In this document: positions 5,436 through 25,987 of the stretch, piece by piece
Numbering within the stretch: the stretch's first letter is position 1
How the letters are laid out: every line of letters begins with the position of its first letter
DNA from: Armatimonadota bacterium
GTDB lineage: Bacteria; Armatimonadota; Armatimonadia; Armatimonadales; Armatimonadaceae
Reading direction: 5' to 3'
Assembly: GCA_014380815.1 (NCBI GenBank)
Contig: JACMJB010000163.1
Location: forward strand, 1-33,516
DNA: 33,516 nucleotides
Position numbers and translations under genes: made by a program
The notes under the pieces: model-generated
Databases searched by the model: none
Told to the model about the DNA's origin: nothing
What the model saw: the letters and a program-made list of their open reading frames with translations, nothing else

Positions 5436-8417
5436 ATGATTGATGCCCCCGGCTCCATGCCCTCCTCCACCCCTCCTCCTGCCGATGCCGCCCCGTTTCT
5501 TGGTCTGAGGCCTCGTGAAAGCGGCCTTTCTGGCCCGCTCTGCGGGGACATCGAGCTTCTGGATCAACTGCTCGGGGATGTGCTCCGAAAACAAGAGGGG
5601 GACGATCTGGTCGTGCTGGCGCACCGCCTGATGGCCACGACCGCGATCGCTGAGGGAAGCGACCCCACCACTCTGCTTGCCCGGCTTCCAGAGCTTGCCG
5701 ATACCGCAGTGGTGCGGCGACTGCTGCGTGCCTTCACGGTTTTTTTCCAGCTGATCAATACCGCCGAACAGAAGGAGATCGTGCGGGTCAACCGGGAGCG
5801 GCAGGATCGCCACCACGGGACACCACGTACGGAATCCATCCGCGAGGCGGTTTTGCGGCTCCGACAGGATGGTTTAACGGCGGAGCAGATGCAGGCGCTG
5901 ATCGCGCGTATTGATGTCTGCCCGACCCTGACCGCGCATCCCACCGAAGCCCGCCGCCGCGCGGTCCTCGATAAGCTGCAGCGGGTCGCCGAGGGTCTGG
6001 CGGAACTGGCGCAGCCGCTTTCCGCACCGCGCCTGGACCGACCGCTGCCCTCCGGCGGGCGCGAAGAGGGGGCGCTGCTGCGCGCGCTGACCGAACTCTG
6101 GCAAACCGACGAGATCCGGGCGAACCCGATCACTGTCCCAGAAGAAGCTCGGAACGCGCTTTATTTCTTCGAGCGGTCCATTCTCGATGTGGTCTCGTGG
6201 CTCCACGCCGATATGCGCGCCGCACTCGCTGAGGCGTACCCTGGCACGGCGTTCGAGATCCCCGCCTTTGTCACCTACCGATCCTGGGTGGGGGGAGACC
6301 GCGATGGCAACCCGAATGTCACCCCGGAGGTGACCTGGCGGACTCTGCTGGAGCACCGCCGACTGGTATTGGAGTTCTACGCCCGGCGCGTGGATAGCCT
6401 GCGCCGTCAGCTTACGCTGGGCACCCGCAATGTCGCATCCGACGACCCATTGCTGCCATCGCTGGAAGCCGATGCTCGTACCGTCCCCATCGCCGAGGAT
6501 CTGCGGGTTCGCTACGCTGCCGAACCGTATGCACTGAAACTGCTCTACGTGCAGTCCCGACTGCAGGCCAACCTGCGGGAAGCACGCACCCTGACCGCCG
6601 TCACGGAGGGCGAAATAACTGCCGACAGTGCCGTGCCGCTCCCCGATGATCCGCACCATGCCTACGCGAACGCCGATGCCTTTCTTGCGGACCTGCTGCT
6701 GCTGCAAGACAGTCTGCGCCGCAACAAGGCGGGAGTCGTCGCTGACGACGGCGCGATGGCGGACCTGGTGACACTCGCGAAGACGTTTGGTTTTCACCTT
6801 GCCGCCCTGGATATCCGCCAGCACAGCGACGAGCACGCGAAGGCACTGGACGAGATTCTCGGCCTTGCGGGCGCACTGCCACCGAACCAGACCTATTCCG
6901 ACCTTCCCGAAGACGAAAAGCGGTCCCTGATCGCCCGTGAGCTTCGCAATCCGCGCCCTCTGATCTTCCGCGATGCCGACCTTTCCGAAAGCACAGCGCG
7001 CGTCGTGCGCGTCTTCGATGTGGCGCGCCGCGCACGCCGCCGCCTGTCGCCGCAGTCGGTGGTCACCTATATCGTTAGCATGACCCACGAGGTTTCCGAT
7101 CTGCTGGAGCCGCTGTTGTTTGCCAAGGAGGCGGGGCTGGTACGCTGGCGCAAAGATCCCCAAACCGGGACCGAGACACTGGAATCGGAACTCGATATGG
7201 TGCCCTTGTTTGAGACGATTGACGATCTCCAGAACAGCGACCGCCTGATGAACGAGGCGTTCGACAGCGATCTGTACCGACTGCAGATTGCCGCCCGTGC
7301 GGGCTTTCAGGAGATCATGTTGGGCTACTCGGACTCCTCCAAGGACGGCGGATTTCTGGCTGCGAACTGGGCGCTCCATGACACGCAGGCACGGCTGGCG
7401 AAGGTCTGCCGCGATGCCGAAGTCTCCCTGCGTTTCTTCCACGGACGCGGCGGCACGGTGGGGCGCGGGGGCGGGCGCGCGAACCGTGCGATCCAGTCGC
7501 AGCCGCCCGGTACCTTCGATGGGCGTATCCGCTTCACGGAGCAGGGCGAGGTGATCTCGTTTCGCTACGGCCTGCCGCCTATCGCACACCGACACCTGGA
7601 ACAGATCGTCAGCGCGTCGCTGCTCGCGACCGAGACCGCGGATCGTGACCTCGCCGCAAGCACCGACCCAAAGGAGCCGGAAGACTGGCTGGCCGCGATG
7701 CACGAAATGGCGGCCCACTCCCGCGCGTTCTACCGAGCCATGGTCCATGATGACCCGGAGTTCTGGCTGTTCTACGCCCAGGGAACCCCGATCGCCCATA
7801 TCAGCCGCCTGCCGATCGCCTCGCGCCCCGTTTCCCGCTCTGGTAAGAAGCTCTCCAGCGTGGATGACCTGCGCGCGATCCCCTGGGTCTTCGCCTGGAT
7901 CCAGAGCCGCTATGTCCTCCCTGGCTGGTACGGACTTGGCGCGGCGCTGGAGTGGTTTGTTTCTTCCCCCCCGGCGGGGGGGGAGAACCAAGAACGCCTC
8001 GCCTTTCTGCAGCGCCTGTACCGGGAGTGGCTGTTCTTTCGGACGGTGATTGACAACGCGCAGCTAGAACTGGCGCGGGCGCACCTGGAGACGGCATCGC
8101 GGTATGCAGCCCGGACAGACCCCAAATCACTGGGGGAGAAGTTCCACACACAGATCTCGGAAGAGCATGCGCGGACTCGCCGATGGGTGCTTGCGGTCAC
8201 GCAACAGGAAGAACTGCTGGGGCATGCGAAGGCTGTTCGCAGCACCATCTCGCTTCGGAACCCCGCCGTGCTTCCGATCTCGATGCTCCAGGTCGCGCTG
8301 ATGGATGCCCACGAAACCCAGACGAACGGCGGCGCAACTGAGGCAGACCCTTCGCTCCGCGAGGCACTGCTGCTGTCTATCACCGGAATCGCCGCCGCGA
8401 TGCAGAGCACCGGCTAG
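5436..8417 (+). CDS. ppc: Phosphoenolpyruvate carboxylase
   Basis: 993 aa. Converts phosphoenolpyruvate and bicarbonate to oxaloacetate, refilling the TCA cycle in the cytoplasm. Diagnostic motifs appear in order: LTAHPTEARRR near residue 163 with the catalytic His, YRSWVGGDRDGNPNVT near 282, DSSKDGGF near 632, the PEP-binding loop FFHGRGGTVGRGGGRANRA near 667, and RFTEQGEVISFRYG near 698. The protein ends QSTG where most family members end (R)NTG. It is about 100 residues longer than the E. coli enzyme, within the family range. ATG 5436 gives a plausible N-terminus and has a -10-like TACAAT 6 bases upstream but no Shine-Dalgarno. A hairpin-forming C/G tract at 7961-7987 is embedded in the coding frame (residues about 842-850), where the family is variable. 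The convergent phzF stop lies 8 bases beyond. Confidence 0.97.
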   Translation: MIDAPGSMPSSTPPPADAAPFLGLRPRESGLSGPLCGDIELLDQLLGDVLRKQEGDDLVVLAHRLMATTAIAEGSDPTTLLARLPELADTAVVRRLLRAFTVFFQLINTAEQKEIVRVNRERQDRHHGTPRTESIREAVLRLRQDGLTAEQMQALIARIDVCPTLTAHPTEARRRAVLDKLQRVAEGLAELAQPLSAPRLDRPLPSGGREEGALLRALTELWQTDEIRANPITVPEEARNALYFFERSILDVVSWLHADMRAALAEAYPGTAFEIPAFVTYRSWVGGDRDGNPNVTPEVTWRTLLEHRRLVLEFYARRVDSLRRQLTLGTRNVASDDPLLPSLEADARTVPIAEDLRVRYAAEPYALKLLYVQSRLQANLREARTLTAVTEGEITADSAVPLPDDPHHAYANADAFLADLLLLQDSLRRNKAGVVADDGAMADLVTLAKTFGFHLAALDIRQHSDEHAKALDEILGLAGALPPNQTYSDLPEDEKRSLIARELRNPRPLIFRDADLSESTARVVRVFDVARRARRRLSPQSVVTYIVSMTHEVSDLLEPLLFAKEAGLVRWRKDPQTGTETLESELDMVPLFETIDDLQNSDRLMNEAFDSDLYRLQIAARAGFQEIMLGYSDSSKDGGFLAANWALHDTQARLAKVCRDAEVSLRFFHGRGGTVGRGGGRANRAIQSQPPGTFDGRIRFTEQGEVISFRYGLPPIAHRHLEQIVSASLLATETADRDLAASTDPKEPEDWLAAMHEMAAHSRAFYRAMVHDDPEFWLFYAQGTPIAHISRLPIASRPVSRSGKKLSSVDDLRAIPWVFAWIQSRYVLPGWYGLGAALEWFVSSPPAGGENQERLAFLQRLYREWLFFRTVIDNAQLELARAHLETASRYAARTDPKSLGEKFHTQISEEHARTRRWVLAVTQQEELLGHAKAVRSTISLRNPAVLPISMLQVALMDAHETQTNGGATEADPSLREALLLSITGIAAAMQSTG
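7961..7987. repeat. C7/G8 inverted repeat inside ppc
   Basis: TTCTTCCCCCCC (7961-7972) and GGGGGGGGAGAA (7976-7987) form a 12-bp hairpin with one G-T wobble and a 3-base loop GGC. It encodes the short stretch SSPPAGGEN in a surface-variable part of PEP carboxylase. It resembles a small mobile palindrome that has settled in frame. Other copies in the genome would have to be searched for. Confidence 0.6.
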
Positions 8418-8425
8418 GGCCAGAG

Positions 8426-9358
8426 TCAAGACAGGGTAAACGCACCCTCGGAAAGGACCAGCGCCTCCCCCTGCACCGCGATTTTGCAGAGGGTGCCGCT
8501 GTGGTCGCGCTCTGCCCGGACGCCCACAGTGCCCCCGCGTCCGCCCGCGAACCCTTGAAGCACGGTGAAAGAGCAATCTTTCCCTGGCGCGACAGGCAGA
8601 ACGCCGTGCTGGGCGAGATAGCCCCCCAGTGCAGCGGAGGCACTGCCGGTCGCGGGGTCCTCGTTCAGCCCCGCAATTGGAGCGTAGCAGCGCGACCAGA
8701 CGGTGAGGCTGTCAGTTGTCTCCGCGATCGGATCAAGAATGGTGAAGACGTAGCACCCGAACGTGCCGTGCTTCTCGGAGAGGGCGGCAATAGCGGCGAA
8801 ATCGGTGGGCGTTCGGTCCACGGTCTCGCGGGACTGGACCGGAACCAGCAGCCAGGGGGTCCCGGTCGAAACCTGCTGCACCGGCATCGGGTCCCGCCCG
8901 ATTTCTCTGTCGGTAAGACCAAGCGCGCGGGCCACCGCTTTTGTTTCCTCGGCGGTGAGCGGACCGCCAAAGGTGGGCATTTTTGGATGCAGGACACCGT
9001 ACCTGCTGTCGGTGATCCCGATGGTCAGTATGCCCGCTTCTGTCGCGGCCTGAAGCGTCTGTCCAGGCTGAATTTCGCCCCGTGCCAGAAGCGCGAACAG
9101 AACGGCAATAGTGGCATGACCGCAGAACGGCACCTCGCAAACTCCGGTAAAGTAGCGCAGCCTCAGGTCCGCATCGTGTCCATCTCCGGCGCGTGACGAA
9201 AGCACGAACGCGCTTTCGAGGTGCACTTCTCCCGCGAGGCGGCGCATTTCGTCACCCGTGAGCGTGGCACCAGTGTCGAAGAAAACGCCCGCCGGGTTGC
9301 CCTGAAACGGCGTGGTGGTAAAGCTGTCGCAGACATAAAAAGGGATTCGGCGCGGCAT
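8426..9358 (-). CDS. PhzF-family isomerase/epimerase
   Basis: 310 aa from ATG at 9358; this start is chosen over the longer open frame because PhzF proteins begin at this beta strand (MPRRIPFYVCDSFTTTPFQG). Family marks are GNPAGV, the catalytic Glu48 in LESAFV, GHATIAVLFAL and EDPATGSASAALGGYL. PhzF proteins have a duplicated diaminopimelate-epimerase-like fold and catalyse proton shifts on small metabolites. Only the phenazine-pathway members are well understood, and no phenazine genes are nearby, so the substrate is unknown. A GC-rich 17-base inverted repeat (9371-9387) lies 12 bases upstream of the start. It ends tail-to-tail with ppc. It sits 196 bases downstream of yciH on the same strand. 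Confidence 0.92.
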   Translation of the reverse strand: MPRRIPFYVCDSFTTTPFQGNPAGVFFDTGATLTGDEMRRLAGEVHLESAFVLSSRAGDGHDADLRLRYFTGVCEVPFCGHATIAVLFALLARGEIQPGQTLQAATEAGILTIGITDSRYGVLHPKMPTFGGPLTAEETKAVARALGLTDREIGRDPMPVQQVSTGTPWLLVPVQSRETVDRTPTDFAAIAALSEKHGTFGCYVFTILDPIAETTDSLTVWSRCYAPIAGLNEDPATGSASAALGGYLAQHGVLPVAPGKDCSFTVLQGFAGGRGGTVGVRAERDHSGTLCKIAVQGEALVLSEGAFTLS

Positions 9359-9370
9359 GACTCCACTATT

Positions 9371-9387
9371 CGCCGCCCCGGGCGGCG
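9371..9387. repeat. 17-base inverted repeat upstream of the PhzF gene
   Basis: CGCCGCCC and GGGCGGCG flank a single C. On the - strand it falls just before the PhzF start, where it could be an operator or an RNA hairpin limiting translation. No regulator is evident. Confidence 0.45.
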
Positions 9388-9501
9388 GTGCCTTCCGGCT
9401 TTGTCTCGGGACCGTTATGCCGCCATGCCCTCCGTTATCGGTATTCCTGTAGAGGGACGCGAGCAAGGCCCACATCCCAATAGGCTGCGCTAGTGGTGCG
9501 C

Positions 9502-9523
9502 CTGAGGTAAATCTGAGGTAAAG
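9502..9523. repeat. Tandem 11-bp direct repeat
   Basis: CTGAGGTAAAT and CTGAGGTAAAG lie head to tail in the 196-base gap between yciH and the PhzF gene. Only the last base differs. It could be a paired regulator site or a chance duplication. Confidence 0.4.
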
Positions 9524-9554
9524 CAGTGGGGGAGACAATCTGCTCGATCCCTGG

Positions 9555-9938
9555 TTACCCACCCATACGTTTGACGGTCCATCCCTGCGCGGTCATCTCG
9601 TCCGCGATGGTGTCGCGGTGGTCCCCCTGAATTTCGATGACACCCTCCTTGAGAGCGCCGCCACTCCCGCACTTCTTCTTGAGGGCGGTGCAAAGCGCGG
9701 CGAGTTCCGCGGCGGGAAGGGGAACCCCGGTCACAATCGTGACGCCCTTTCCTTTGCGCCCCTTGGTCTCCCGTCCCACGCGAACGATGCCGTCCCGGGG
9801 AACCGGGTTCACGGTCGCTGAGGGGGCGCGGCTTACCCTGGCGGCGGGACGAGTGCGGGCGCAGTCACATTTGGCGACCGGCTGACCACAGTCCGGGCAC
9901 AAACGGCCTTGCTGCGTGGAATAGACAAGGCCGCTCAT
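9555..9938 (-). CDS. yciH: SUI1/eIF1-family translation factor, YciH-like
   Basis: 127 aa. The C-terminal two-thirds is the SUI1 domain shared with eukaryotic eIF1: GRKGKGVTIVTG, LKKKCGSGGALKEGVIEIQG and the terminal GWTVKRMGG match bacterial YciH closely. YciH is thought to act at translation initiation by affecting start-site and initiator-tRNA discrimination on the 30S subunit. The N-terminus begins with the usual LVYSTQQGR and adds CPDCGQPVAKCDC, four to five cysteines that could form a small zinc ribbon; the E. coli protein lacks this. Its ATG overlaps the stop of the VOC gene in an ATGA, so translation is probably coupled. The start is therefore well fixed. Confidence 0.92.
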   Translation of the reverse strand: MSGLVYSTQQGRLCPDCGQPVAKCDCARTRPAARVSRAPSATVNPVPRDGIVRVGRETKGRKGKGVTIVTGVPLPAAELAALCTALKKKCGSGGALKEGVIEIQGDHRDTIADEMTAQGWTVKRMGG

Positions 9939-10462
9939 AAAATTGGGGCAACCTCCGCCAGCAGGGACGGCAGGTCGAGTGCGCGAGTATACAGAGTGAT
10001 CTCCCCACTCTTGGATCGGGGCCAGGAATCGCGGGGTCGGTCCCAGGTAAGCTCGACCCCATTCTGATCCGGGTCGCGCAAATAGAGCGCTTCACTGACA
10101 CCATGATCGGATGCCCCGTCCAGCGCGATGCCCGCCTCGATAAGCCGCCGGAGGGCATCCGCAAGGGCGCGCCGTGTCGGATATCGGATTGCAAAGTGAA
10201 ACAAGCCGGTCGTACCGGGCGCGGGCGGGCGGCCCCCCGCGCTTTCCCAGGTGTTTAGCCCGATATGGTGGTGATAACCGCCCGCACTCAGAAATGCGGC
10301 CTGCGCCCCATAACGCTGGGTCAATGCGAAGCCCAGAACGCCCTGATAAAAAGCGAGGGCGCGGTCCAGGTCCGCCACTTTGAGGTGAACGTGCCCGATG
10401 TCCACTCCGGAATCAAGGATAGATTTCGGCTCATCGTCTGGCAGATGTCCCGTACTTGACAT
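9935..10462 (-). CDS. VOC-family protein, catechol-2,3-dioxygenase/glyoxalase-like
   Basis: 175 aa from ATG at 10462. A longer open frame upstream reads through a hexamer repeat (Trp-Ser repeats) and was rejected. Two vicinal-oxygen-chelate half-domains are visible. The first starts IGHVHLKVADLDRALAFYQ with the first metal His and continues through LSAGGYHHHIGLNTWES. The second starts GLFHFAIRYP and ends with the metal Glu in YLRDPDQNGVELTWDRP. This pattern fits CatE/catechol-dioxygenase-like members more than lactoylglutathione lyases, but the substrate is unknown. It overlaps yciH by 4 bases. A promoter (TTGGTC, 16 bp, TATAAC) lies immediately upstream with the -10 only 6 bases from ATG, and the -35 is the first unit of a tandem array. 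Confidence 0.88.
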   Translation of the reverse strand: MSSTGHLPDDEPKSILDSGVDIGHVHLKVADLDRALAFYQGVLGFALTQRYGAQAAFLSAGGYHHHIGLNTWESAGGRPPAPGTTGLFHFAIRYPTRRALADALRRLIEAGIALDGASDHGVSEALYLRDPDQNGVELTWDRPRDSWPRSKSGEITLYTRALDLPSLLAEVAPIL

Positions 10463-16632: not shown

Positions 16633-17604
16633 TTATTCGTCATCGGTGCGGGTCTCCAGGGCGCTTTGCAGGGAGGGCGAAAGGCGGGAGAAAAAGTCGA
16701 GGCCCGTCGCTTTTTCGACATCGCGGACTGGGACGCGCCATTTGCCCCAGTCGCCGTCCGCGATGTCCGGCCCGTTTCGGTTCGGGATAATCACGGCAAA
16801 GACGCGGGTTTTCGTGCTTACCTGTGCCAGCCCGGCGGCGCGGCGCGGCAGAACGGCGACCACCTTCCAGGTGGACTCGGGAACGCTGACCGCGGCGACA
16901 CGCCCGATGGTGCCGACCTTGCCGACCGGTCCGCAGACGATGTAAAGAACGTTTCCCGCGTTCGCGAGGTCCCGGCAGTAGTTTTCCAGCGTGGCCCAGC
17001 TTTTCTGGTTGTTGTCCGCGGCCTGGGGCATCATATTGCTCATGTAAAAGGTGGCATCGTTGGCTTCGCGGCTGGCGGTGCGGTCGCCGGACGGGCACAG
17101 ATGGCCCCGGTCGTAGCCGCTGCCCCGATAGTCGGTCGGGGCGACCGTGGTGAAGCCCTCCGGCAGATCCGGGTCGGTCTGAAACTGACCGCGCTCCTCC
17201 GGGCCGAGGTCTTCGCTCACCAGCCGCCAGCTTACCCAATTGGGCCGTCCGTCGGCATTGTTATAGGAAAGAGCGTACTGCTTTCGCTCCAGAAGGTAGT
17301 TGTCACGGTCGGTGACACTCGCGGTGGCGCGGCTGGGGTTGCCGAGGAGCAGGTTCGGGTCGCCGCTTGTGGGGGCGATGATACCGCCCCCGTCCCGGAT
17401 TCCCTGCGAGGCGGGCGGATCGGGCCGCGTTTGACGTCGCGGGCGTTTTGATACTTTGGGGGGACCCGGCGGTGGTGCCGTCGCGACCGAAGGGGAGGTA
17501 GGCACTTCCTGCCGGCTCCTGCAGTACAGACCGCTCATCAGCAGAGTGGCGGCAATCAGCACGGTGACGACGCGCTGTGGTTTCGGCTGCCGGTGTCGCG
17601 GCAT
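16633..17604 (-). CDS. Secreted DNA/RNA non-specific endonuclease (DRGH/NUC family)
   Basis: 323 aa. A basic start and hydrophobic stretch (VVTVLIAATLLMSGLYC) suggest export or membrane anchoring; the Cys is not in a standard lipobox. Residues 27-75 are Pro- and basic-rich linker. The nuclease domain begins near ASVTDRDNYLLERKQYALSYN and carries the catalytic DRGHLCPSGDRT (D165-H168) and the metal-binding segment YMSNMMPQAADNNQKSWATLE, as in Serratia nuclease and mitochondrial EndoG. These enzymes cut single- and double-stranded DNA and RNA with magnesium and a His general base. Usual role is nutrient scavenging from extracellular nucleic acid or attack on rivals. It is first in a - strand run whose third gene is Imm1-like. 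Confidence 0.92.
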   Translation of the reverse strand: MPRHRQPKPQRVVTVLIAATLLMSGLYCRSRQEVPTSPSVATAPPPGPPKVSKRPRRQTRPDPPASQGIRDGGGIIAPTSGDPNLLLGNPSRATASVTDRDNYLLERKQYALSYNNADGRPNWVSWRLVSEDLGPEERGQFQTDPDLPEGFTTVAPTDYRGSGYDRGHLCPSGDRTASREANDATFYMSNMMPQAADNNQKSWATLENYCRDLANAGNVLYIVCGPVGKVGTIGRVAAVSVPESTWKVVAVLPRRAAGLAQVSTKTRVFAVIIPNRNGPDIADGDWGKWRVPVRDVEKATGLDFFSRLSPSLQSALETRTDDE

Positions 17605-17808: not shown

Positions 17809-18810
17809 GTGTCAGGGGCAGCAGGCACTTTTTTCGCCAGGGTTTTTTCCCGGTTCCAGACAGCTCGCCTGTCTTCCGATGCGCAAGAGGCTAAGCCCCC
17901 TCGGGAGAGCGCCGCGACCCCGGCGGTAGCTGCGCCGCCGCCTGAGGCTCCTCCCGCATCCCTGAGGCGCAAACGGACCTCCGCCGTGACCCGGGCAACC
18001 ATATCCGATCCTCTTTCTGGCCCAAAGGGTGTACCTGTGGAGGTAGCTCCGGGGCAGGACCCCTCGCGGGACGCGGTGCTTCAGGAAATGGAAAACGATC
18101 TGCTGACCCTGCTCAACATGACCGCGACGGTGCTGGTGCGGGTCAAGCGTCCGCCCCCTGTCTCCGGCAGCGTCAGCCGACTGAAGCGAAAAGACCCCGT
18201 GGCATCCGCTCTTCCCGCCCACTCACCGTTTGGGGCGGTGACCACGGGCCAGACGCTTGCCCGGCGGATCGAGCAGCGCTCTCGCGGGCTGTTGCTGGAA
18301 ACCTCGCTGACCGCGATTCAGCAAAGCCGGATTGACCGTACTTTGCAAAGCGCTCTGGACCTGCTCTGCGCTCTCCAGGCCGCGCGCTATGCCTGGCAGA
18401 TCGCCCTGTTGCTTCCACTGGAGGGGCCATCGGGACGGGACGCCCTCCCGCACCTGAAGCGGGTCACGGAACAGGCGATCGAGATGAACAGCCGGGTTGC
18501 CTTTGCCATCGAGGGTAAAGAAGGGGCGGGAGCGGCGGTGGCTGATCAGTACCGGGCGTACTGGGCGGTAAAAGAAGAGACTGCCGTTCATTTCCATGAA
18601 CTGCGCGAAAGCGGCACGCTTTCGCAGACTGCGCGGCGATTGGTACGAGCCGCCCTTTGGAGCGTAACGGTCGCCGCCGAAAGCATGGCAAAGGCCGCGG
18701 CGCGCTTTACGCTGCCGCTGGGAGCCGCCCGTGCGGCAACAAAAGAACAGCAGGAGTTCCGACATCTGGATCGGGGCGACGATCTTCTTGCTCCGCTGCC
18801 ACGTCGCTGA
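17809..18810 (+). CDS. Unrecognised helical protein, first gene of the GTPase/WD40 cassette
   Basis: 333 aa from a GTG at 17809 with GGAG 10 bases upstream. No signal peptide or membrane segment. Residues 25-110 are Pro/Ala- and Arg-rich and probably disordered. From about residue 85 on, the protein is predicted by eye to be almost all helix, with long amphipathic stretches such as QQSRIDRTLQSALDLLCALQ and ARRLVRAALWSVTVAAESM. The helical layout is loosely like the three-helix repeats of PhoU, but no diagnostic PhoU motif is present and I do not assign it. The next gene on the same strand is the membrane GTPase, 318 bases downstream. It could be a cytoplasmic partner of that GTPase, or independent. 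Confidence 0.7.
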   Translation: MSGAAGTFFARVFSRFQTARLSSDAQEAKPPRESAATPAVAAPPPEAPPASLRRKRTSAVTRATISDPLSGPKGVPVEVAPGQDPSRDAVLQEMENDLLTLLNMTATVLVRVKRPPPVSGSVSRLKRKDPVASALPAHSPFGAVTTGQTLARRIEQRSRGLLLETSLTAIQQSRIDRTLQSALDLLCALQAARYAWQIALLLPLEGPSGRDALPHLKRVTEQAIEMNSRVAFAIEGKEGAGAAVADQYRAYWAVKEETAVHFHELRESGTLSQTARRLVRAALWSVTVAAESMAKAAARFTLPLGAARAATKEQQEFRHLDRGDDLLAPLPRR

Positions 18811-19128
18811 ATTATTAGTATCCGGGTATATTGCTAGCTAAGAAGACCGCTCAAACCGTATCCACGGATGATCCACGCGATCCACGAGGCGAAGACAGGG
18901 AGAAAGCGTCACCCTGTCGAATAGATTTTTTGAGACTCTTTGAGATTCTTTCGTGCAGAAGCACGAGGGCAGTACCCGCGCAGGGCATCCTGGGCGATAG
19001 CGAATTCGGTGATATATGGCATACCGGATTCTTTTCCGCAGCTATCGCCCCGCCGCGCCCGATCGCGCCCTTCCGGCGCAACAACCGAGGGATGCCAGCG
19101 CGGGCTGGACGCAGAAAGGGCTTGCCCC
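18811..19128. other. 318-base gap before the membrane GTPase gene
   Basis: No gene is supported here, although the GTPase frame is open through part of it. It holds a direct repeat of GATCCACG (about 18869-18886), a pair of TTTGAGA-type repeats near 18925-18950, TATATT at 18827-18832 and TATATG near 19012 as possible -10 boxes without matching -35 boxes, and AAAGGG at 19115-19120, 8 bases before the chosen ATG. A promoter for the GTPase gene is likely but cannot be placed. Confidence 0.4.
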
Positions 19129-21105
19129 ATGCAAGAGGACGACCGAACACTGGAGATGTATGTTCCTGCCGCCGCCGAACCGCCGACCCTGGAAGCGCCA
19201 AACGGCGCTTCCGTTCACGGGTCAGCGACTGCGACGGTGCAGCCGCCTGTCGCAGTCGGTCCCCCCTCTGCCGCGGGCGCGCCGCCGACCGCCCCCCCGG
19301 CGCATCCGGCGGCCCGAACCGGCGCCAAGGCTTATGGGGGGGCATCTACGCCCGGTGGAAGCGGCAACGCGCCCTCTGGCGCGCCAACCGCGCCGGGAAG
19401 CGCGATCCCCGACAGTATCGGCAGGCAGCGTCCTTCGCCGGTTCTGGACCCCCTCAGCCGTATGCGCACCAGCCGACTGGCGAAATGGGGGCTACTGGGG
19501 GCGATTCTGCTCTTCTTTGCCTGGCTGCCGTTTGCGCCCTCGCGCCCCTCGCCCGCATTCGATCTTGCCCTGGTAACCTCGGCGACCGTTTTCGCGGCGA
19601 TTCTCGCGACCGGCCTTCCACGCCTGGTGCTGCCGGGGATGTTCGGTCGCTGGCACGAGCCGGTCGAAGCGGTGCGGGACTGGCTTCTGGTCGGGGTCGC
19701 GACCGGTTTCCTGTACTTCGGATTCATTCGAGTGGCGTTCGTGACCGGCATTGGTCCCTCTTCCGTGACCTCCACGGAGGAGTGGCTGAAATGGCGGCTG
19801 CCCCTGCTGCTGTTCGCGAGTGTTCTCGCCGTATTCGCCGCCCGCATTCTGGCCATCCGCCGGGAAAGCCTGGTCAGCAGCGGCACGGGGGCGGCGGTGG
19901 CGCAGGTCGCGGTCCAGGCGCTGCTGATCTCGGTACTGGAACGACCCCTGGAGCGGGGACTGCGGACTCTGGTGACCAGCGGCAACAGCTCCCTGGCGAT
20001 GATTCTGGGGCTGGCCGCCCTGATTCTATTCATCGGGTCGGTGATGATTATCTTCTGGGCCGCGACTGCAGATGAAAACCTGTCTAACCTGAAAAAACGC
20101 CGCACCAGCGGGGTGGTGGACGGTACCAATCCGGTGGAACTTACCCTGACCGTTGTTGGGGGGCGCGAGTCCGGTAAGACGGTCCTGCTTGCGGGGGCGT
20201 TCTATGAATGGTCTACCCAGAACCTGGGCAACCTCCGAATCACCCCAACGCCCGGCGGCGCAGTGGATCCCATTGGCGCCATGGGCACGGGCGGCGGCAG
20301 CCCCGCCGTTTCCCTCGAAGATGTAGCCCGCGAGCTTTATATCAACTACCAGTTTCCGGTTGGAACCGTCTCGAGCCAGAACCTGCCGTTCGACCTGTCG
20401 CTGGGACAGGACAAGGTGGCACGGTTCTCGTTCCTGGACTACCCCGGAGGCGCGATTGCCGGGCGTGTCGCCGACTCGCGCGTCGTGAATGAGTTCTGGG
20501 AGCGTGTGGACGACACGGACGGCCTGATCCTCATTGCGGATATGTCCTACGTGCGCCGTAACCGCAAAGACTCAGACTGGCTGGAGGTACGCAACGCCTA
20601 CCGCACTGTCATGCAGCGGCTGGTGGACCGCAACGGCAAACGGCGTGTCGTCCCGGTCGCGATGGTCCTGACCAAGTGTGATGAATTCGTGGACCCGAAC
20701 ACGGGCCTGATTGACATGGCCCAGCTAGAAGCGGGCCTCAAAGAGTTCCAGTATGACGAACTGGAGACTGAGTGGCGGAAGATGAATGCGGAGCGCGGGC
20801 CGGGCTTCGCGGAGTTCACCACCTGGATCACCTCGGCGATCACCTACTCGCAGCCGCAAAAAGGACCGGACGGTCGTCCTGACCCCAAGCGCCCGTTCGC
20901 ACTGGGAACACCGCCACCGACTATCACGCCGACGGGCTGCGCCTCGCCGCTGCTCTGGATGACCTCCAAGGTCATGCGCTGGAATGTTACCCTGTTTGCG
21001 GACCTGGGCACCTTCCTGTTTGGATCATCGCCCGAAGTCCGGCGGCGCATCGAAGCCGTTCTGGAAACGGAGCGTATCGCGGAGGAGCGTGCGGCCAAGG
21101 CCTAG
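19129..21105 (+). CDS. Polytopic membrane protein with C-terminal P-loop GTPase domain
   Basis: 658 aa from ATG 19129 (AAAGGG 8 bases upstream). Residues 15-110 are Pro/Ala/Gly-rich and probably disordered. About six hydrophobic segments follow (near 119-134, 143-162, 183-206, 222-243, 255-270, 288-312). The cytoplasmic C-terminal domain has GTPase motifs: G1 GGRESGKT (344-351), G3 DYPGG (437-441), G4 TKCD (515-518, in place of NKxD) and a G5-like TSA (568-570). VVGGRESGKTVLLAGAFYEW resembles GTPase modules of bacterial conflict and envelope systems, but I cannot name the family. Hydrolysis activity looks intact. Genes downstream encode a single-pass membrane protein and an exported WD40 protein, suggesting a nucleotide-controlled membrane complex. 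A translation start at the upstream 18940 is unlikely. Confidence 0.82.
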   Translation: MQEDDRTLEMYVPAAAEPPTLEAPNGASVHGSATATVQPPVAVGPPSAAGAPPTAPPAHPAARTGAKAYGGASTPGGSGNAPSGAPTAPGSAIPDSIGRQRPSPVLDPLSRMRTSRLAKWGLLGAILLFFAWLPFAPSRPSPAFDLALVTSATVFAAILATGLPRLVLPGMFGRWHEPVEAVRDWLLVGVATGFLYFGFIRVAFVTGIGPSSVTSTEEWLKWRLPLLLFASVLAVFAARILAIRRESLVSSGTGAAVAQVAVQALLISVLERPLERGLRTLVTSGNSSLAMILGLAALILFIGSVMIIFWAATADENLSNLKKRRTSGVVDGTNPVELTLTVVGGRESGKTVLLAGAFYEWSTQNLGNLRITPTPGGAVDPIGAMGTGGGSPAVSLEDVARELYINYQFPVGTVSSQNLPFDLSLGQDKVARFSFLDYPGGAIAGRVADSRVVNEFWERVDDTDGLILIADMSYVRRNRKDSDWLEVRNAYRTVMQRLVDRNGKRRVVPVAMVLTKCDEFVDPNTGLIDMAQLEAGLKEFQYDELETEWRKMNAERGPGFAEFTTWITSAITYSQPQKGPDGRPDPKRPFALGTPPPTITPTGCASPLLWMTSKVMRWNVTLFADLGTFLFGSSPEVRRRIEAVLETERIAEERAAKA

Positions 21106-21133
21106 TGTGCCAGTGACCTGGGGGCAGAGCCTC

Positions 21134-21158
21134 GGGGTCAGTACGGAAGTCTGACCCC
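21134..21158. repeat. Hairpin between the GTPase gene and the next gene
   Basis: GGGGTCAG (21134-21141) and CTGACCCC (21151-21158) form a perfect 8-bp stem with a 9-base loop, 28 bases after the GTPase stop. There is no T-run, so it may be an mRNA processing or stability element that lowers expression of the downstream gene rather than a full terminator. Confidence 0.45.
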
Positions 21159-21221
21159 CTGCCGCCTCGCCTGGCAACGGCGGACCTATCGTATCAACAG
21201 TCCTAAAAGGTACCGTAACGA

Positions 21222-23132
21222 ATGAGCATCAGCAGCAACGCAGCAGCCGCCGCAGCGACCCCAGGAACGAACGGGCAGACCGTGCCCGTTCGCTGGGTGG
21301 TCCTGTTTACCGGCAGCACCGTGACCGCGGATTATGAGCCGACCGGCAGCGCGGGGGAATCTCCCGAACTGGTGCGCGAGGTCTCCAGCCTCTGCGTTCA
21401 GTTTCACCCGCACTCGGAGATCCGGCTGTTCCCCCGCGACCGCGAGGTGTATCTGTACTGGCGGGCACGGTCCACCGGCGACCACATCATCACCCGGGTC
21501 TCGACGGCCCCGAATCCGGACGGGGTACGGACCGCGCTGGAGTACGTCAGCCTTCTGTTTAGCCCGGAAATATTCATGCGGCTTGGCAGAAACCCTTTTC
21601 TGGTGCGCACTCTGAAGCTGCCTGACCTGGTTCGAGATGCCTTTCTTGCAAACCAGCGCGACCCGCTGCTCACAGCGGTTCCGGTGGCGGTGGTCAGCAG
21701 CAAGCCTGCCGCGTTTACGAGCATTCCGGACAACAATGCTCTCTCCACACCGGAGAATGTCCACTCCCTGGAAGACTATGTCGCCGCGGTCGGGGCGGCA
21801 AAGGACCCGCCGACATTCGCGTCGTGGTGGACCAGCCGGGGCTATGTGCCGGAGAATACCTTTGAGATCGTGCTGCGCGCCGCCGCGCCGCAGGCAATGA
21901 CACTGCGCGAAGCTACGGATCTGGCGTCCGAACTGGCGGCGGGCGTGAAATCCGCGCTTCCCACCGTTTCGGACGGCGATGCGGTTGTCTCCGGGCTGAT
22001 CGTCTCGCTGCTGGCGAATTCGGATGCGATCATCGCTGCGATCAGCGCAGCGGCGGATCGGGTAAACAGCGAGGGGCCGGATCAATTTCGGCAGCGCCTC
22101 GCGGATGCCAGCCGTAAATCTACCCAGGTCAGCAGCGACCTTGCCTCCGTGGAAAAGCGACTGGACAATCCTGCCTCCGCGACCCGTCTTGCGGAGATTG
22201 CCGCGCAGTATACCGGCCTCGCGCAGGAGGTGCAGAAAGTCCGGCACCCCAACCCCTTCGCTGCGCGCAAAAACACCGCTCCCGACACTGCCGCCCTCAC
22301 CAACGGGGCAGCGACAACCCGGCAGGACCCGCAAAACGGCAGCAAGACATCCGCCGCAAACAACAGTCTCTCCCCAAATGGGTCGCTGCCCGTCAAAAAA
22401 AGTAACAGCCTGTTGATCGGCGCGGGTGCCGCTGCTGCTATTGCACTGTTCGGATTTGCGGCGCTGAAGTTCGCAGGCCAGCCGGCAGCGCCCAAAAATG
22501 GGGGCGAAAAGAGCGGCAGACCATCGGTGGCAGTCGCGCCGAAATCCGCGACACCCAATCCCAATCGAGCCGCCGTGGCCGTCACGCCCGAGGCGCTGCT
22601 ACAGAAATTCTCCCGCGACACCCTGCCCCTCGCGGTCCTGAAAGCAAAGTCGGAGGCGACCGTCGCCGCATCGGCTAGCGGCAAGGCGCCCACCGAAAAC
22701 GAGCTTCGCGACATAACGACCAAGGCGATCAAGAACGCCTATAAAGAGACGCTGTCACCCGAAGACTACGCGAAGGCCTTCGCGGACAGAGAGAACTGGA
22801 CCTATTCCCGCTACCGAGAAACGCTGGACACGCTCCTGCCTGAGGTCCGCCGGGCCGCCGGCAGCAGCGCCGCCGCCGCGGTCGCCCAGATAGAGGAGGC
22901 TCGCAGAAAAGCCGTCGCGGCGGCGGCCCGGAATGCGGAGACGCAATCCACCCCGGAGCCGGAACCGACGCGGCGGGTGCGACCGACTCCAGAGCCGGAA
23001 GCGACACGCAGGGTACGACCAACCCCGGAGCCGGAGCGGACGCCCCGTCCGCGTCCCACTCGCGCCCCGGAAACCCCCCGGCCCCAGTCAACCCCCACCA
23101 ACGGGGGCGGTGCAGACGGCACCAACCTGTAG
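21222..23132 (+). CDS. Unrecognised single-pass membrane protein with cytoplasmic N-domain and Pro/Arg-rich tail
   Basis: 636 aa from ATG 21222; AAAAGG lies 11 bases upstream. Residues 20-170 look like a folded alpha/beta domain (VRWVVLFTGSTVTADYEP, EVYLYWRARSTGDHIITRVS). Residues 180-340 are helical and probably coiled (TQVSSDLASVEKRLDN). After a Ser/Asn/Thr-rich linker comes one membrane segment (396-416, SLLIGAGAAAAIALFGFAAL). The outer part has a helical domain (about 455-570) and ends with three 12-residue repeats of the form TPEPExTRRVRP. Without a signal peptide, and with positive residues before the segment, the N-terminal domain should be inside and the tail outside. I do not recognise the family. 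Position between a membrane GTPase and an exported WD40 protein suggests it bridges the two. Confidence 0.78.
   Translation: MSISSNAAAAAATPGTNGQTVPVRWVVLFTGSTVTADYEPTGSAGESPELVREVSSLCVQFHPHSEIRLFPRDREVYLYWRARSTGDHIITRVSTAPNPDGVRTALEYVSLLFSPEIFMRLGRNPFLVRTLKLPDLVRDAFLANQRDPLLTAVPVAVVSSKPAAFTSIPDNNALSTPENVHSLEDYVAAVGAAKDPPTFASWWTSRGYVPENTFEIVLRAAAPQAMTLREATDLASELAAGVKSALPTVSDGDAVVSGLIVSLLANSDAIIAAISAAADRVNSEGPDQFRQRLADASRKSTQVSSDLASVEKRLDNPASATRLAEIAAQYTGLAQEVQKVRHPNPFAARKNTAPDTAALTNGAATTRQDPQNGSKTSAANNSLSPNGSLPVKKSNSLLIGAGAAAAIALFGFAALKFAGQPAAPKNGGEKSGRPSVAVAPKSATPNPNRAAVAVTPEALLQKFSRDTLPLAVLKAKSEATVAASASGKAPTENELRDITTKAIKNAYKETLSPEDYAKAFADRENWTYSRYRETLDTLLPEVRRAAGSSAAAAVAQIEEARRKAVAAAARNAETQSTPEPEPTRRVRPTPEPEATRRVRPTPEPERTPRPRPTRAPETPRPQSTPTNGGGADGTNL
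22950..23057. repeat. Three 36-base coding repeats (Pro/Glu/Arg-rich tail)
   Basis: Encodes residues 577-612 of the membrane protein as three 12-residue units: TPEPEPTRRVRP, TPEPEATRRVRP and TPEPERTPRPRP. The tail alternates acidic and basic residues and is probably extended outside the membrane, perhaps binding cell wall or the WD40 protein. Confidence 0.7.
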
Positions 23133-23282
23133 TGCCGGTAGCGTCAGCAGTGCCAACGTTTGCGGGTGCCGCTCCTACAGGGCAGCTCGCGGTGACGAAT
23201 CTCAAACCAGTACCCCAATCAATCACGGGTCACCGCCCTCCGCCGCCAGGGACGGCAGCGGTGACCGAGGAGAATATGGCTC

Positions 23283-25301
23283 ATGCGTAGTTGGAACGGG
23301 CTGCTCGCAGCCCTTCCCTTGATCGGTCTCTCGGGTGTGGCGGCGACCGTCACATTGGCAGCAGCGGCGCAGGCGCCCTCTGTCGCCGTCGCCGAGGTCA
23401 GGCCCGTGCCCCCCGCCGCACTCAGCCCGGATGGCGCCCAGTTCGCGGCTGTCACGCCTGCGAATGACATCTATCTCTATGACCGGGTATCGGGAAAACC
23501 GATCCGCCTCCTCGGAAGGCCCGCGAACCGGGTCTATGCTCTTGCGTTTTCTAATAGCGGTGCTTCCCTTGCCGCCGCGGGCGAGGGAAGGGTGGTCCGT
23601 ATTTTCAACACCCTGACCGGCACGCGCACTGCCGAGCTGAAAGAGCCGGATGAGGCCAGGGGCACACTCGGCGGACGCTCCGCCATTACGGGTCTCGCCT
23701 TTAACATCTCGGACAACGAACTGATTGTCGCCGACAGCGGCGACCAGACACTGGTCCGTTTTGCTCTTAACCCTGCCAGCGGCATGCTCATCTACCAGAA
23801 CAAAACCGATATCGCGGTGCCGCTGTTCAGCATTGCGCTGAATGCGCGAGGGGGATATGTCGCGGGGGGAGGCGACGGCAAGCTGCGGTTCTTCAGCAGC
23901 GCACTGAGCGAAGAGGCCGCCACCCAGGAACTGCACCAGGGGCCAATCCGGACGGTGCTGGTGAGCAGCGATGGGAAGTTCGCAGCAAGCGGCGGCGACG
24001 ACGCCCTGGTTCGGGTCTTTCGGCTGCCGGGTGCAATCACCGGAACGCCGATGCGGCTGACACCCGAGGATACGTTCGTTGCCATTCGACCGCTTCGTGC
24101 GCTATCGTTCGCGGACCTGAGCCGGAAAATCCTGCTGTCTCTGGACAGCACTGCCCGTGTTCGCGAATGGCCCTATGCGCGCGGCAGCAACGGCGCTCCC
24201 CAGGCTACGCCAAGCCCCGCGCCGACGTCTACCCCGACCCCCGCCCCGACTCAGACACCTTCGCCGACGCCCACACCGACGGTCCGTCCGACCCCCCGGC
24301 CCACTCCGAAGCCGACCCCGCGTCCGACCCCGACCGTGAAGCCGCGTCTGACCGCGCGGGACATGAACCCGTCGGCGGCCCCGAGAGCGAGGCTGTTAGG
24401 GCACAGCGAATATGTCAACAGTGTGACCTTCAGTCCCGATGGCGCAACTCTGGCGAGCGGAAGCCGGGACAAAACGATCCGTCTGTGGGACGCCGCATCC
24501 GGGCTGCCCAAGTCTATTCTTGGTAAGCACGGTAACTATGTCAGCGAGATCGCGTTCAGTCCGAACGGAAAGCAGCTTGTCACCTGCGGCTGGGACAACA
24601 AGATCAAGCTATGGGATCTGGCAGCGGGCAAGGAAATAGGGGGGAATCTGTTCAGCGCGCATACCAGCTATGTTCTTTCCGCCAAGTTCAGTCTGGATGG
24701 TCAGTTCATCGGTAGCGGCAGCAACGACAAAACCGCCCGTTTGACGGCAATCCGCCTGAGGATCGCCCCGCGCAAGAGCGAGGTGAAGCCAGACGCGATC
24801 TCATCGGTTGCGTTCAGCCCGGACGGAAAGCTGCTGGCGGGCGGTTGTCTGGATGGCAAAGTCTATATCTGGGATGCCCGGACACTGGAGCCAAGGCGCA
24901 CCCTGACGGTCCCCGGTTCGTCGCTGTCCGTGCTCACTGTGACCTTTCTTGGAAACGCGACGCTGGCGACGGGAAGCAAAGGGGGCTTCGTGCGACTGTG
25001 GAACGCCGAAACCGGCACCCTCACCGCGACTCTGCAAAGCGGCAAAGAGGATGTCTTCGCGCTGGCCTACCAACGCCAGCGCCGAATTCTGGCGACGGGT
25101 GGCGGAGATAACAAGATCAGCCTGTGGGAGCTACCGGCGACCCCACTAAAGGCGATTCAGCGGGTTCCCCTGCTTCAGGTCGGCGGGCACACCGCGACGG
25201 TGCGAACGCTGGCCTTCAACGCAGACGGAACGTCGCTGGCCAGTGGAAGCTGGGATTACAATATCCTGCTCTGGAACACGGCGGACTTCTTCGTGCGGTA
25301 A
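23283..25301 (+). CDS. Exported WD40 protein with two propeller regions joined by a Thr/Pro linker
   Basis: 672 aa from ATG 23283, with GAGGAG 10 bases upstream. Residues 1-31 are a signal peptide (cut near AAAAQA). Residues 40-300 contain about six degenerate WD40 units, such as VYALAFSNSGASLAAAGEG and IRTVLVSSDGKFAASGGDD. A 46-residue Thr/Pro linker (309-354) follows. Residues 360-672 contain seven clearer repeats, for example LLGHSEYVNSVTFSPDG with TIRLWDAASG, and end in WDYNILLWNTADFFVR. Seven repeats make one full beta-propeller; the first half may form a second. WD40 propellers are scaffolds for protein complexes. Here the protein is exported, which suits a partner for the neighbouring membrane protein rather than a cytoplasmic signalling role. 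It ends at a strong two-way hairpin. Confidence 0.88.
   Translation: MRSWNGLLAALPLIGLSGVAATVTLAAAAQAPSVAVAEVRPVPPAALSPDGAQFAAVTPANDIYLYDRVSGKPIRLLGRPANRVYALAFSNSGASLAAAGEGRVVRIFNTLTGTRTAELKEPDEARGTLGGRSAITGLAFNISDNELIVADSGDQTLVRFALNPASGMLIYQNKTDIAVPLFSIALNARGGYVAGGGDGKLRFFSSALSEEAATQELHQGPIRTVLVSSDGKFAASGGDDALVRVFRLPGAITGTPMRLTPEDTFVAIRPLRALSFADLSRKILLSLDSTARVREWPYARGSNGAPQATPSPAPTSTPTPAPTQTPSPTPTPTVRPTPRPTPKPTPRPTPTVKPRLTARDMNPSAAPRARLLGHSEYVNSVTFSPDGATLASGSRDKTIRLWDAASGLPKSILGKHGNYVSEIAFSPNGKQLVTCGWDNKIKLWDLAAGKEIGGNLFSAHTSYVLSAKFSLDGQFIGSGSNDKTARLTAIRLRIAPRKSEVKPDAISSVAFSPDGKLLAGGCLDGKVYIWDARTLEPRRTLTVPGSSLSVLTVTFLGNATLATGSKGGFVRLWNAETGTLTATLQSGKEDVFALAYQRQRRILATGGGDNKISLWELPATPLKAIQRVPLLQVGGHTATVRTLAFNADGTSLASGSWDYNILLWNTADFFVR
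24207..24344. repeat. Thr/Pro low-complexity coding tract
   Basis: Encodes residues 309-354 of the WD40 protein as TP, TPTP and RPTP units. Such linkers are common between domains of exported proteins and can vary in length between strains. Confidence 0.75.
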
Positions 25302-25366: not shown

Positions 25367-25987
25367 TTAGCCACCGGCATTCGGCAGCGCGCTGAGAAGG
25401 CGCTTCTGCAGGACTGCCATGGTCACATCGCCCCGGGTGCGCTCGACAACTCCCCGGAGGGAGTCGCAGGTGCGCCGCAACCCCCCCGTCACGGCATCAG
25501 GATAATCCAGCGTCATAAGGGCCGATAGGATATCGTCCATCGCGGCAAGCATCATCTCCGCGCGAGCGGCCTCGCCTCGCCGCAGGCAGTCCAGAGCGTG
25601 ACGCCGACCCTCGGACGCCGCCTCGGCCAGACCATTCAGATACGCCGCTGTTTCGATTCCCAGTGCGACGGGGGTCGGAAGGGGTGCGCCTTCCAGCAGC
25701 GCGAGGAGCACGGCGGCCTCGGCAAGTTCCTTATGGGCATCCTGGACATAGCCCGCGAAGAAAAGTCCGGGATGGCTCGCCAGCGCCTCCGCGACCTGCC
25801 GCGCCTCCGCTCGCGCCCCGCTGATCGCTTCCCGCGCCTCGGCAAGCTCGCCGCGATGCATGGCGCGGATGGCGTTCGCGCAGGTACGAGTGAGCGCGCG
25901 CCCGTGCATCAGGGCAACTTCACGGGTACGGTAGGTTTCGTCCAGGTTGGTGCGGGCGTCCCCGATCATCTGCTGCAGATTTTCCAT
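25367..25987 (-). CDS. Translin-family protein
   Basis: 206 aa, all helical, close in length to translin (about 200-230 aa). Matching segments include TYRTREVALMHGRALTRTC, AIRAMHRGELAEAREAI, LFFAGYVQDAHKELAEAAVL, GIETAAYLNGLAEAASEGRR, AAMDDILSALMTLDYPDA and VTGGLRRTCDSLRGVVERTR, which follow archaeal and bacterial translin. Eukaryotic translin with TRAX forms C3PO, an RNase that trims small RNAs and tRNA precursors; several acidic residues (for example in QDAHKE and AMDDI) could support catalysis, but which ones are used is not certain here. ATG 25987 is preceded by a near-consensus promoter whose -10 ends 6 bases away, so the mRNA is probably leaderless. Confidence 0.88.
   Translation of the reverse strand: MENLQQMIGDARTNLDETYRTREVALMHGRALTRTCANAIRAMHRGELAEAREAISGARAEARQVAEALASHPGLFFAGYVQDAHKELAEAAVLLALLEGAPLPTPVALGIETAAYLNGLAEAASEGRRHALDCLRRGEAARAEMMLAAMDDILSALMTLDYPDAVTGGLRRTCDSLRGVVERTRGDVTMAVLQKRLLSALPNAGG

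Follow-up and report, generated by a model that had tools for sequence, protein, structure and literature searches.

A 33,516-nucleotide stretch of DNA from an Armatimonadota bacterium (hereafter the window; GenBank JACMJB010000163.1, assembly GCA_014380815.1) was analyzed. It makes up the entire contig C259, one of 495 in a draft genome of 4.2 Mb. Four same-strand open reading frames (ORFs; 17809-18810, 18940-21105, 21222-23132 and 23283-25301) were confirmed close to where a first-pass annotation had placed them as one cassette. We found that the last three, genes 2 to 4, are a sparse, conserved module of a GTPase, a partner and, at most loci, a WD40 protein, and that the four ORFs are not one four-gene system. 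DO-GTPases paired with GAP1 proteins were described by Kaur, Burroughs, Iyer and Aravind in 2020 as parts of predicted bacterial conflict systems (PMC7159879). We consider it reasonably probable that genes 2 to 4 represent a membrane-embedded, divergent version of the DO-GTPase/GAP1-N2 type that would couple extracytoplasmic sensing to the inner membrane, gene 1 being unrelated. The first-pass view of the locus as an undescribed system does not stand, since both the GTPase family and the GTPase/GAP1 pairing are already in the literature (PMC7159879). The four genes, with the evidence for each, are as follows.

17809..18810, + strand: gene 1, all-helical protein with a predicted PhoU fold, 333 aa, outside the module (Foldseek, distribution)
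19129..21105, + strand: gene 2, GTPase of the DO-GTPase2 family with six transmembrane (TM) segments, 658 aa (Pfam PF19993, hhalign, conservation in 6 further Armatimonadota genomes)
21222..23132, + strand: gene 3, bitopic partner with a GAP1-N2-like N-terminus (co-occurrence, hhalign, TM segment and predicted helices)
23283..25301, + strand: gene 4, exported WD40 protein (PF00400, signal-peptide-like N-terminus, WD40 neighbors in relatives)

The GTPase and partner genes occur together

A profile of the GTPase was run against 291 Armatimonadota genomes at a threshold of E 0.001 and matched eight, seven of them credibly. The eighth match, in G017, was discarded (E 6.8e-4, N-terminal part only, internal stop). 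The partner profile matched exactly the same 7 of the 291 genomes, and in all seven the two genes are adjacent, with the partner directly downstream. These genomes (the window's, G004, G009 and G058-G061) represent three genera in two families; within the window's own family, 3 of the 12 genomes sampled carry the pair. In the relatives the two genes overlap or lie no more than about 20 bp apart. A contig scan with narrow patterns matched one Armatimonadetes contig only, and the distribution thus covers the Armatimonadota sample. No relative of the GTPase was found in plasmids or in IMG/VR.

Gene 2 is a membrane-embedded DO-GTPase2

The most likely start of gene 2 is the ATG at 19129, because homologues align from about there; position 18940 is merely the first TTG of the frame. 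As first annotated, the product is a six-segment membrane protein: hydropathy placed the TM segments at residues 180-372 of the 721-aa frame, preceding the cytoplasmic GTPase domain. The G1 (GGRESGKT), G3 (DYPG) and G4 (TKCD) motifs were confirmed and the proposed G5 (TSAIT) is plausible. Across the seven GTPase sequences the P-loop GG[RS]xSGKT, G3 LDYxG and G4 TKxDE are kept. No zinc-ribbon cysteines were seen ahead of the gene 2 GTPase domain.

By its sequence, gene 2 belongs to the described DO-GTPase2 family. It passed the curated cut-off of PF19993 (31.8 bits vs 27), scoring 36.2 bits with its neighbors in frame, and the sole further Pfam family found for it up to E 1 was DO-GTPase1 (E 0.18). 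Among its relatives the L041 copy passed (40.3 bits) and the L038 copy fell narrowly below the cut-off (24.6 bits). Gene 2 is the only PF19993 match in the whole window genome, so there is no paralogous second copy. Compared by hhalign with the canonical DO-GTPases of the phylum, gene 2 and its relatives gave 97.5% (P 8.6e-12; reversed control 0.1%), a figure partly due to the common P-loop GTPase fold. When the GTPase domains were placed in a maximum-likelihood tree, the module copies formed one well-supported side opposite the canonical DO-GTPases (100/99). The tree hints at a grouping of the window copy with those of genus g46, with weak support (72/81), and its root joins long branches.

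The G058 GTPase gene (L039:6618-8476(-)) is split over two overlapping frames, 7709-8476 and 6618-7865, and the partner gene beside it has a run of N; either the assembly is wrong here or the gene is broken.

The partner is probably a distant relative of GAP1-N2

Gene 3 encodes a single-pass membrane protein, in agreement with the first-pass annotation: hydropathy gave one convincing TM segment (residues 397-415), and the C-terminal Pro/Glu/Arg tail was seen. Its cytoplasmic N-terminal part holds a GAP1-N2-like domain (about residues 20-150) and a helical region (about 180-340); beyond the TM segment come an external helical segment (about 455-575) and the tail. No significant Pfam family was found for it, PADLOC and NCBIfam gave no significant match for any of genes 1 to 3, and searches of solved structures with profiles of the same three genes returned nothing credible.

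We built a profile from the N-terminal 170 residues of the seven partners and compared it with GAP1-N2 domains fetched from the phylum by PF20013. The hhalign match was 68-84% (64-92% in a jack-knife that left out single sequences), with the alignment limited to about the first 180 profile columns. No reversed control exceeded 0.2%, and none of 40 column shuffles exceeded 0.6%. Against 89 ORF clusters from the same loci, the best unrelated cluster gave 4.9%; in the reciprocal scan of these clusters by the GAP1-N2 profile, partner proteins took the top two places (35% and 19%) and the next cluster gave 1.6%. The GAP1-like domain is also N-terminal in the gene directly downstream of the GTPase, which matches the published arrangement of GAP1 (PMC7159879). 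Taking these comparisons together, we read the N-terminus of gene 3 as distantly homologous to GAP1-N2 and do not count it as a family member.

The outer part of the partner is variable. In G004 and G009 the partners are 394-395 aa long and the outside part is missing. An external domain common to the window partner and those of the other family, f9, was sought by profile comparison and was not detectable (0.1%).

In genus g46 an extra bitopic protein is encoded between the partner and the WD40 gene (L038:6458-7174(-), L039:3964-4686(-)). In G058 and G059 the part of this protein that lies outside the membrane is similar in sequence to the f9 partner's external segment and appears to be a duplicated external module.

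A putatively exported WD40 protein adjoins the pair in both families

Gene 4 is, as first annotated, a putatively exported WD40 protein, with a signal-peptide-like N-terminus and PF00400 repeats (E 1.5e-74). A long Thr/Pro linker (about residues 300-365) connects two WD40-containing halves; the C-terminal half is a WD40 propeller and the N-terminal half is the weaker match. An exported WD40 gene adjoins the GTPase-partner pair in both families, in 5/7 genomes and 2/3 genera: the window genome, G058, G059, G061 and, cut by a contig end, G060. In genus g46, which belongs to the other family, the Pfam scan covered three WD40 genes. L038 4892-6442 and L039 2465-3967 score above the PF00400 cut-off, and L041 12489-13697 falls just below it (24.3 bits vs 27, E 4.5e-5); the fourth copy, in L040, is cut by the contig end.

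One could suppose that gene 4 is a chance neighbor and that the true unit is the GTPase and partner only, as in G004 and G009, where the loci carry no WD40 gene. WD40 is a common repeat, and each g46 genome has 20-49 matches to it. In the window genome, on the other hand, such repeats are few: there are 9 matches, and all of those individually listed but one fall in gene 4. By a rough estimate, the probability that a WD40 gene adjoins the pair by chance is around 1% for a g46 genome and around 0.1% for the window genome. Moreover, the association recurs in two distant families, every full-length copy beside the pair bears an apparent export signal by its sequence, and at three of the four f9 loci the WD40 gene either overlaps the preceding gene or is no more than about 20 bp away from it (about 230 bp in G060). 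We therefore regard a chance neighbor as improbable.

Gene 1 is an independent PhoU-like neighbor

The first-pass annotation described gene 1 as all-helical and soluble, and both AlphaFold2 and hydropathy agree. The AlphaFold2 model has a confident helical core, with 168 residues at a predicted local distance difference test (pLDDT) score of at least 90, and its mean of 73.3 reflects disordered ends. In Foldseek the first seven PDB matches were all PhoU or PhoU-like (probability 1.00), with a best E of 5e-3, nothing below 1e-3, and TM-scores by target of 0.55-0.77. The model has two three-helix bundles, the topology of PhoU. Pfam gave no PhoU match for gene 1 (best E 0.025, for one relative), and a Pfam scan found no pst genes in the window.

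Gene 1 and the GTPase are distributed separately. The gene 1 family occurs in four genomes of one family, and only the window's also has the GTPase; relatives were found in G001, G002 and G007, all without it, and a paralogue lies elsewhere in the window genome. The six other GTPase genomes (G004, G009 and G058-G061) lack gene 1. We excluded gene 1 from the module because of this separate distribution and the predicted PhoU fold, and on the model it is best read as an independent neighbor that encodes a divergent PhoU-like protein.

The first-pass annotation had instead made gene 1 the cytoplasmic partner of the GTPase within a four-gene system. The four genes do share strand and order in the window, and the gap between gene 1 and the GTPase start has no terminator-like site on the + strand. 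This is a property of all three intergenic gaps, in which a consensus-match scan of the + strand found neither a sigma-70-like promoter nor a terminator-like site. Against a four-gene system, the gap ahead of the GTPase start is the widest of the three (318 bp). We rejected the unity of the four genes because of where gene 1 occurs and how it is predicted to fold, and a cytoplasmic partner role for it is largely refuted and very improbable. Of the first-pass predictions, adjacency across Armatimonadota thus held for genes 2 and 3 and failed for gene 1, whose homologues occur separately. The idea of a GTPase-centered trans-membrane assembly survives in the linkage of genes 2 and 3 and in the exported WD40 protein of two families, without gene 1. 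Nor are three of the four proteins beyond recognition, as had been thought: gene 2 was placed by PF19993, gene 3 by profile comparison and gene 1 by fold.

In our sample the gene 1 group is confined to a single bacterial family and forms a small set of paralogues with a predicted PhoU fold. Two of its members, L021:7964-8650(-) and L022:1196-1918(+), come from two genomes of the same genus and adjoin ABC-transporter ATPase genes. One relative in G001 stands beside a pstB-phoU-like pair, as read from the sequence.

Comparison with described systems

The module resembles the DO-GTPase/GAP1-N2 systems (PMC7159879) in having a DO-GTPase2-family GTPase with a GAP1-N2-like gene immediately downstream, TM segments in both proteins, and variable parts outside the membrane. 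TM-bearing DO-GTPases and GAP1 proteins with C-terminal TM segments are known in the canonical systems, in which two paralogous DO-GTPase copies (38%) and N-terminal zinc ribbons (60%) are frequent, not universal (PMC7159879). In contrast to these systems, the six TM segments of the module GTPase all precede its GTPase domain, and zinc ribbons are absent; the window copy has glycine in place of the Walker B glutamate; GAP1-M and GAP1-C were not detected; and an exported WD40 protein takes the place of FNIII, HSP70, tubulin or kinase components.

The standard form also occurs in Armatimonadota, which makes the window module an offshoot in that phylum. At E 0.001, matches to PF19993 and PF20013 were found together in five genomes, and in two of these the PF19993 score is under the cut-off. 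L090 brings together a DO-GTPase with zinc-ribbon-like cysteines, GAP1-N2, an FNIII-like gene and HSP70/GrpE-like genes, and L093 has vWA-like genes, a GAP1-N2-like protein with C-terminal TM segments and a DO-GTPase; names at these two loci beyond PF19993 and PF20013 were read from the sequences and not from a family scan. Tandem DO-GTPase2 genes were seen in G266 and G201 (L089:6627-8168 and 8556-10097; L091:7694-8587 and 8577-10022), and each of the G266 pair has four N-terminal TM segments; these genes would serve for a comparison of membrane DO-GTPases.

The MoxR-vWA beta-propeller subsystem (PMC7159879) shares a beta-propeller part and a membrane component with the module. Unlike it, the window module has no MoxR or vWA gene, and its switch is a GTPase.

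Several observations weigh against reading genes 2 to 4 as a DO-GTPase/GAP1-N2 variant. A conserved Walker B glutamate (DxxGE) is said to mark DO-GTPases (PMC7159879) and is found in the canonical L091a, L091b and L092; the window copy reads DYPGG, five relatives have GG, GS or GK at this position, and GE occurs in L041 only. A plain hidden Markov model search with PF20013 does not reach gene 3, Pfam detected no GAP1-M or GAP1-C in it, its link to GAP1-N2 depends on profile-profile comparison over about 50-100 columns, and its structure model is poor (mean pLDDT 50.7) and unfit for a fold search. No homology is detectable between the external segment of the window partner and those of f9, and no WD40 gene stands beside the pair in G004 and G009. 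The module has no zinc ribbon, no recognizable effector and no FNIII protein (fn3 was unmatched among 27 window proteins scanned with Pfam), and the window gaps of 116 and 150 bp between genes 2 to 4 exceed those of most relatives. We do not file the module as a member of the GAP1-N2 systems because it has no FNIII protein, no detected GAP1-M/C and, in the window copy, no Walker B glutamate.

The same family relationships would hold if the genes encoded an envelope-homeostasis or cell-surface assembly machine, with the GTPase acting on the partner as a mechanical drive and the exported WD40 protein serving as the scaffold of a surface structure. The role would then be physiological and not defensive. 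A conserved set without a recognizable effector suits such a machine, and so do the stability of the locus within g46, where the same selB-like and GT-C glycosyltransferase-like neighbors recur, and the unremarkable base composition of the window, where the G+C content at third codon positions of the locus genes resembles that of their neighbors and no island signature appears. A DO-GTPase has also been placed in psp envelope-stress operons (PMC11237479), which links it to membrane stress; unlike those operons, the window has no PspA, PspB, PspC or PspF gene by Pfam. However, the sporadic spread of the pair is unlike that of housekeeping genes, and conservation between the two families does not extend to the outside parts. 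We consider an envelope machine possible, though rather unlikely, and retain the DO-GTPase/GAP1-N2 variant as our reading.

Neighboring genes

The GT-C glycosyltransferase-like membrane protein of g46 is encoded directly upstream of the GTPase (L038:10916-12514(-), L041:7539-9131(+), L039:8619-9524(-)). It was rejected as a component: it is kept beside the GTPase in that genus only, and the G004 and G009 counterparts show no match.

A lipoprotein-like exported DNA/RNA non-specific endonuclease (PF01223, E 8.3e-57) is encoded at 16633-17604 (-), divergent from gene 1. NucA-type nucleases are present in another system described in PMC7159879. As no relative was found in the other GTPase loci examined, the endonuclease was not counted as an effector. 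A 206-aa protein at 25367-25987 (-), convergent with gene 4, has a weak match to Translin (PF01997, E 0.042, below the cut-off).

Proposed mechanism and significance

If genes 2 to 4 are such a variant, some component of the cell envelope may be sensed or scaffolded by the exported propeller and the partner's external segment. Transmission across the membrane would go through the single TM helix of the partner, whose GAP1-like domain would then change the nucleotide state of the GTPase. By analogy with canonical systems, the GTPase may act as a dimer. Its TM block would be the output, as a membrane effector or channel-like element, or would recruit the output; candidate triggers are an invader or envelope stress. 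A role in defense or conflict is a prediction here, as it is for the canonical systems. We find it doubtful that the module is a more specific three-part device in which the TM block is a GTP-gated membrane effector, the GAP1-derived bitopic partner its control, and the exported WD40 propeller the element that switches it on from outside. If true, such a device would be a case of outside-in signaling to a GTPase across the bacterial inner membrane.

In the literature searched we found no experimental test of the predicted DO-GTPase/GAP1 systems, and DO-GTPases are rarely named. A version of only two or three proteins, with a membrane switch and outside inputs, would be a tractable case for studying the effect of GAP1 on its GTPase and for studying sensing. 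On our reading, the module adds a membrane-only architecture, found in Armatimonadota, to the DO-GTPase family and offers a testable role for an exported WD40 protein.

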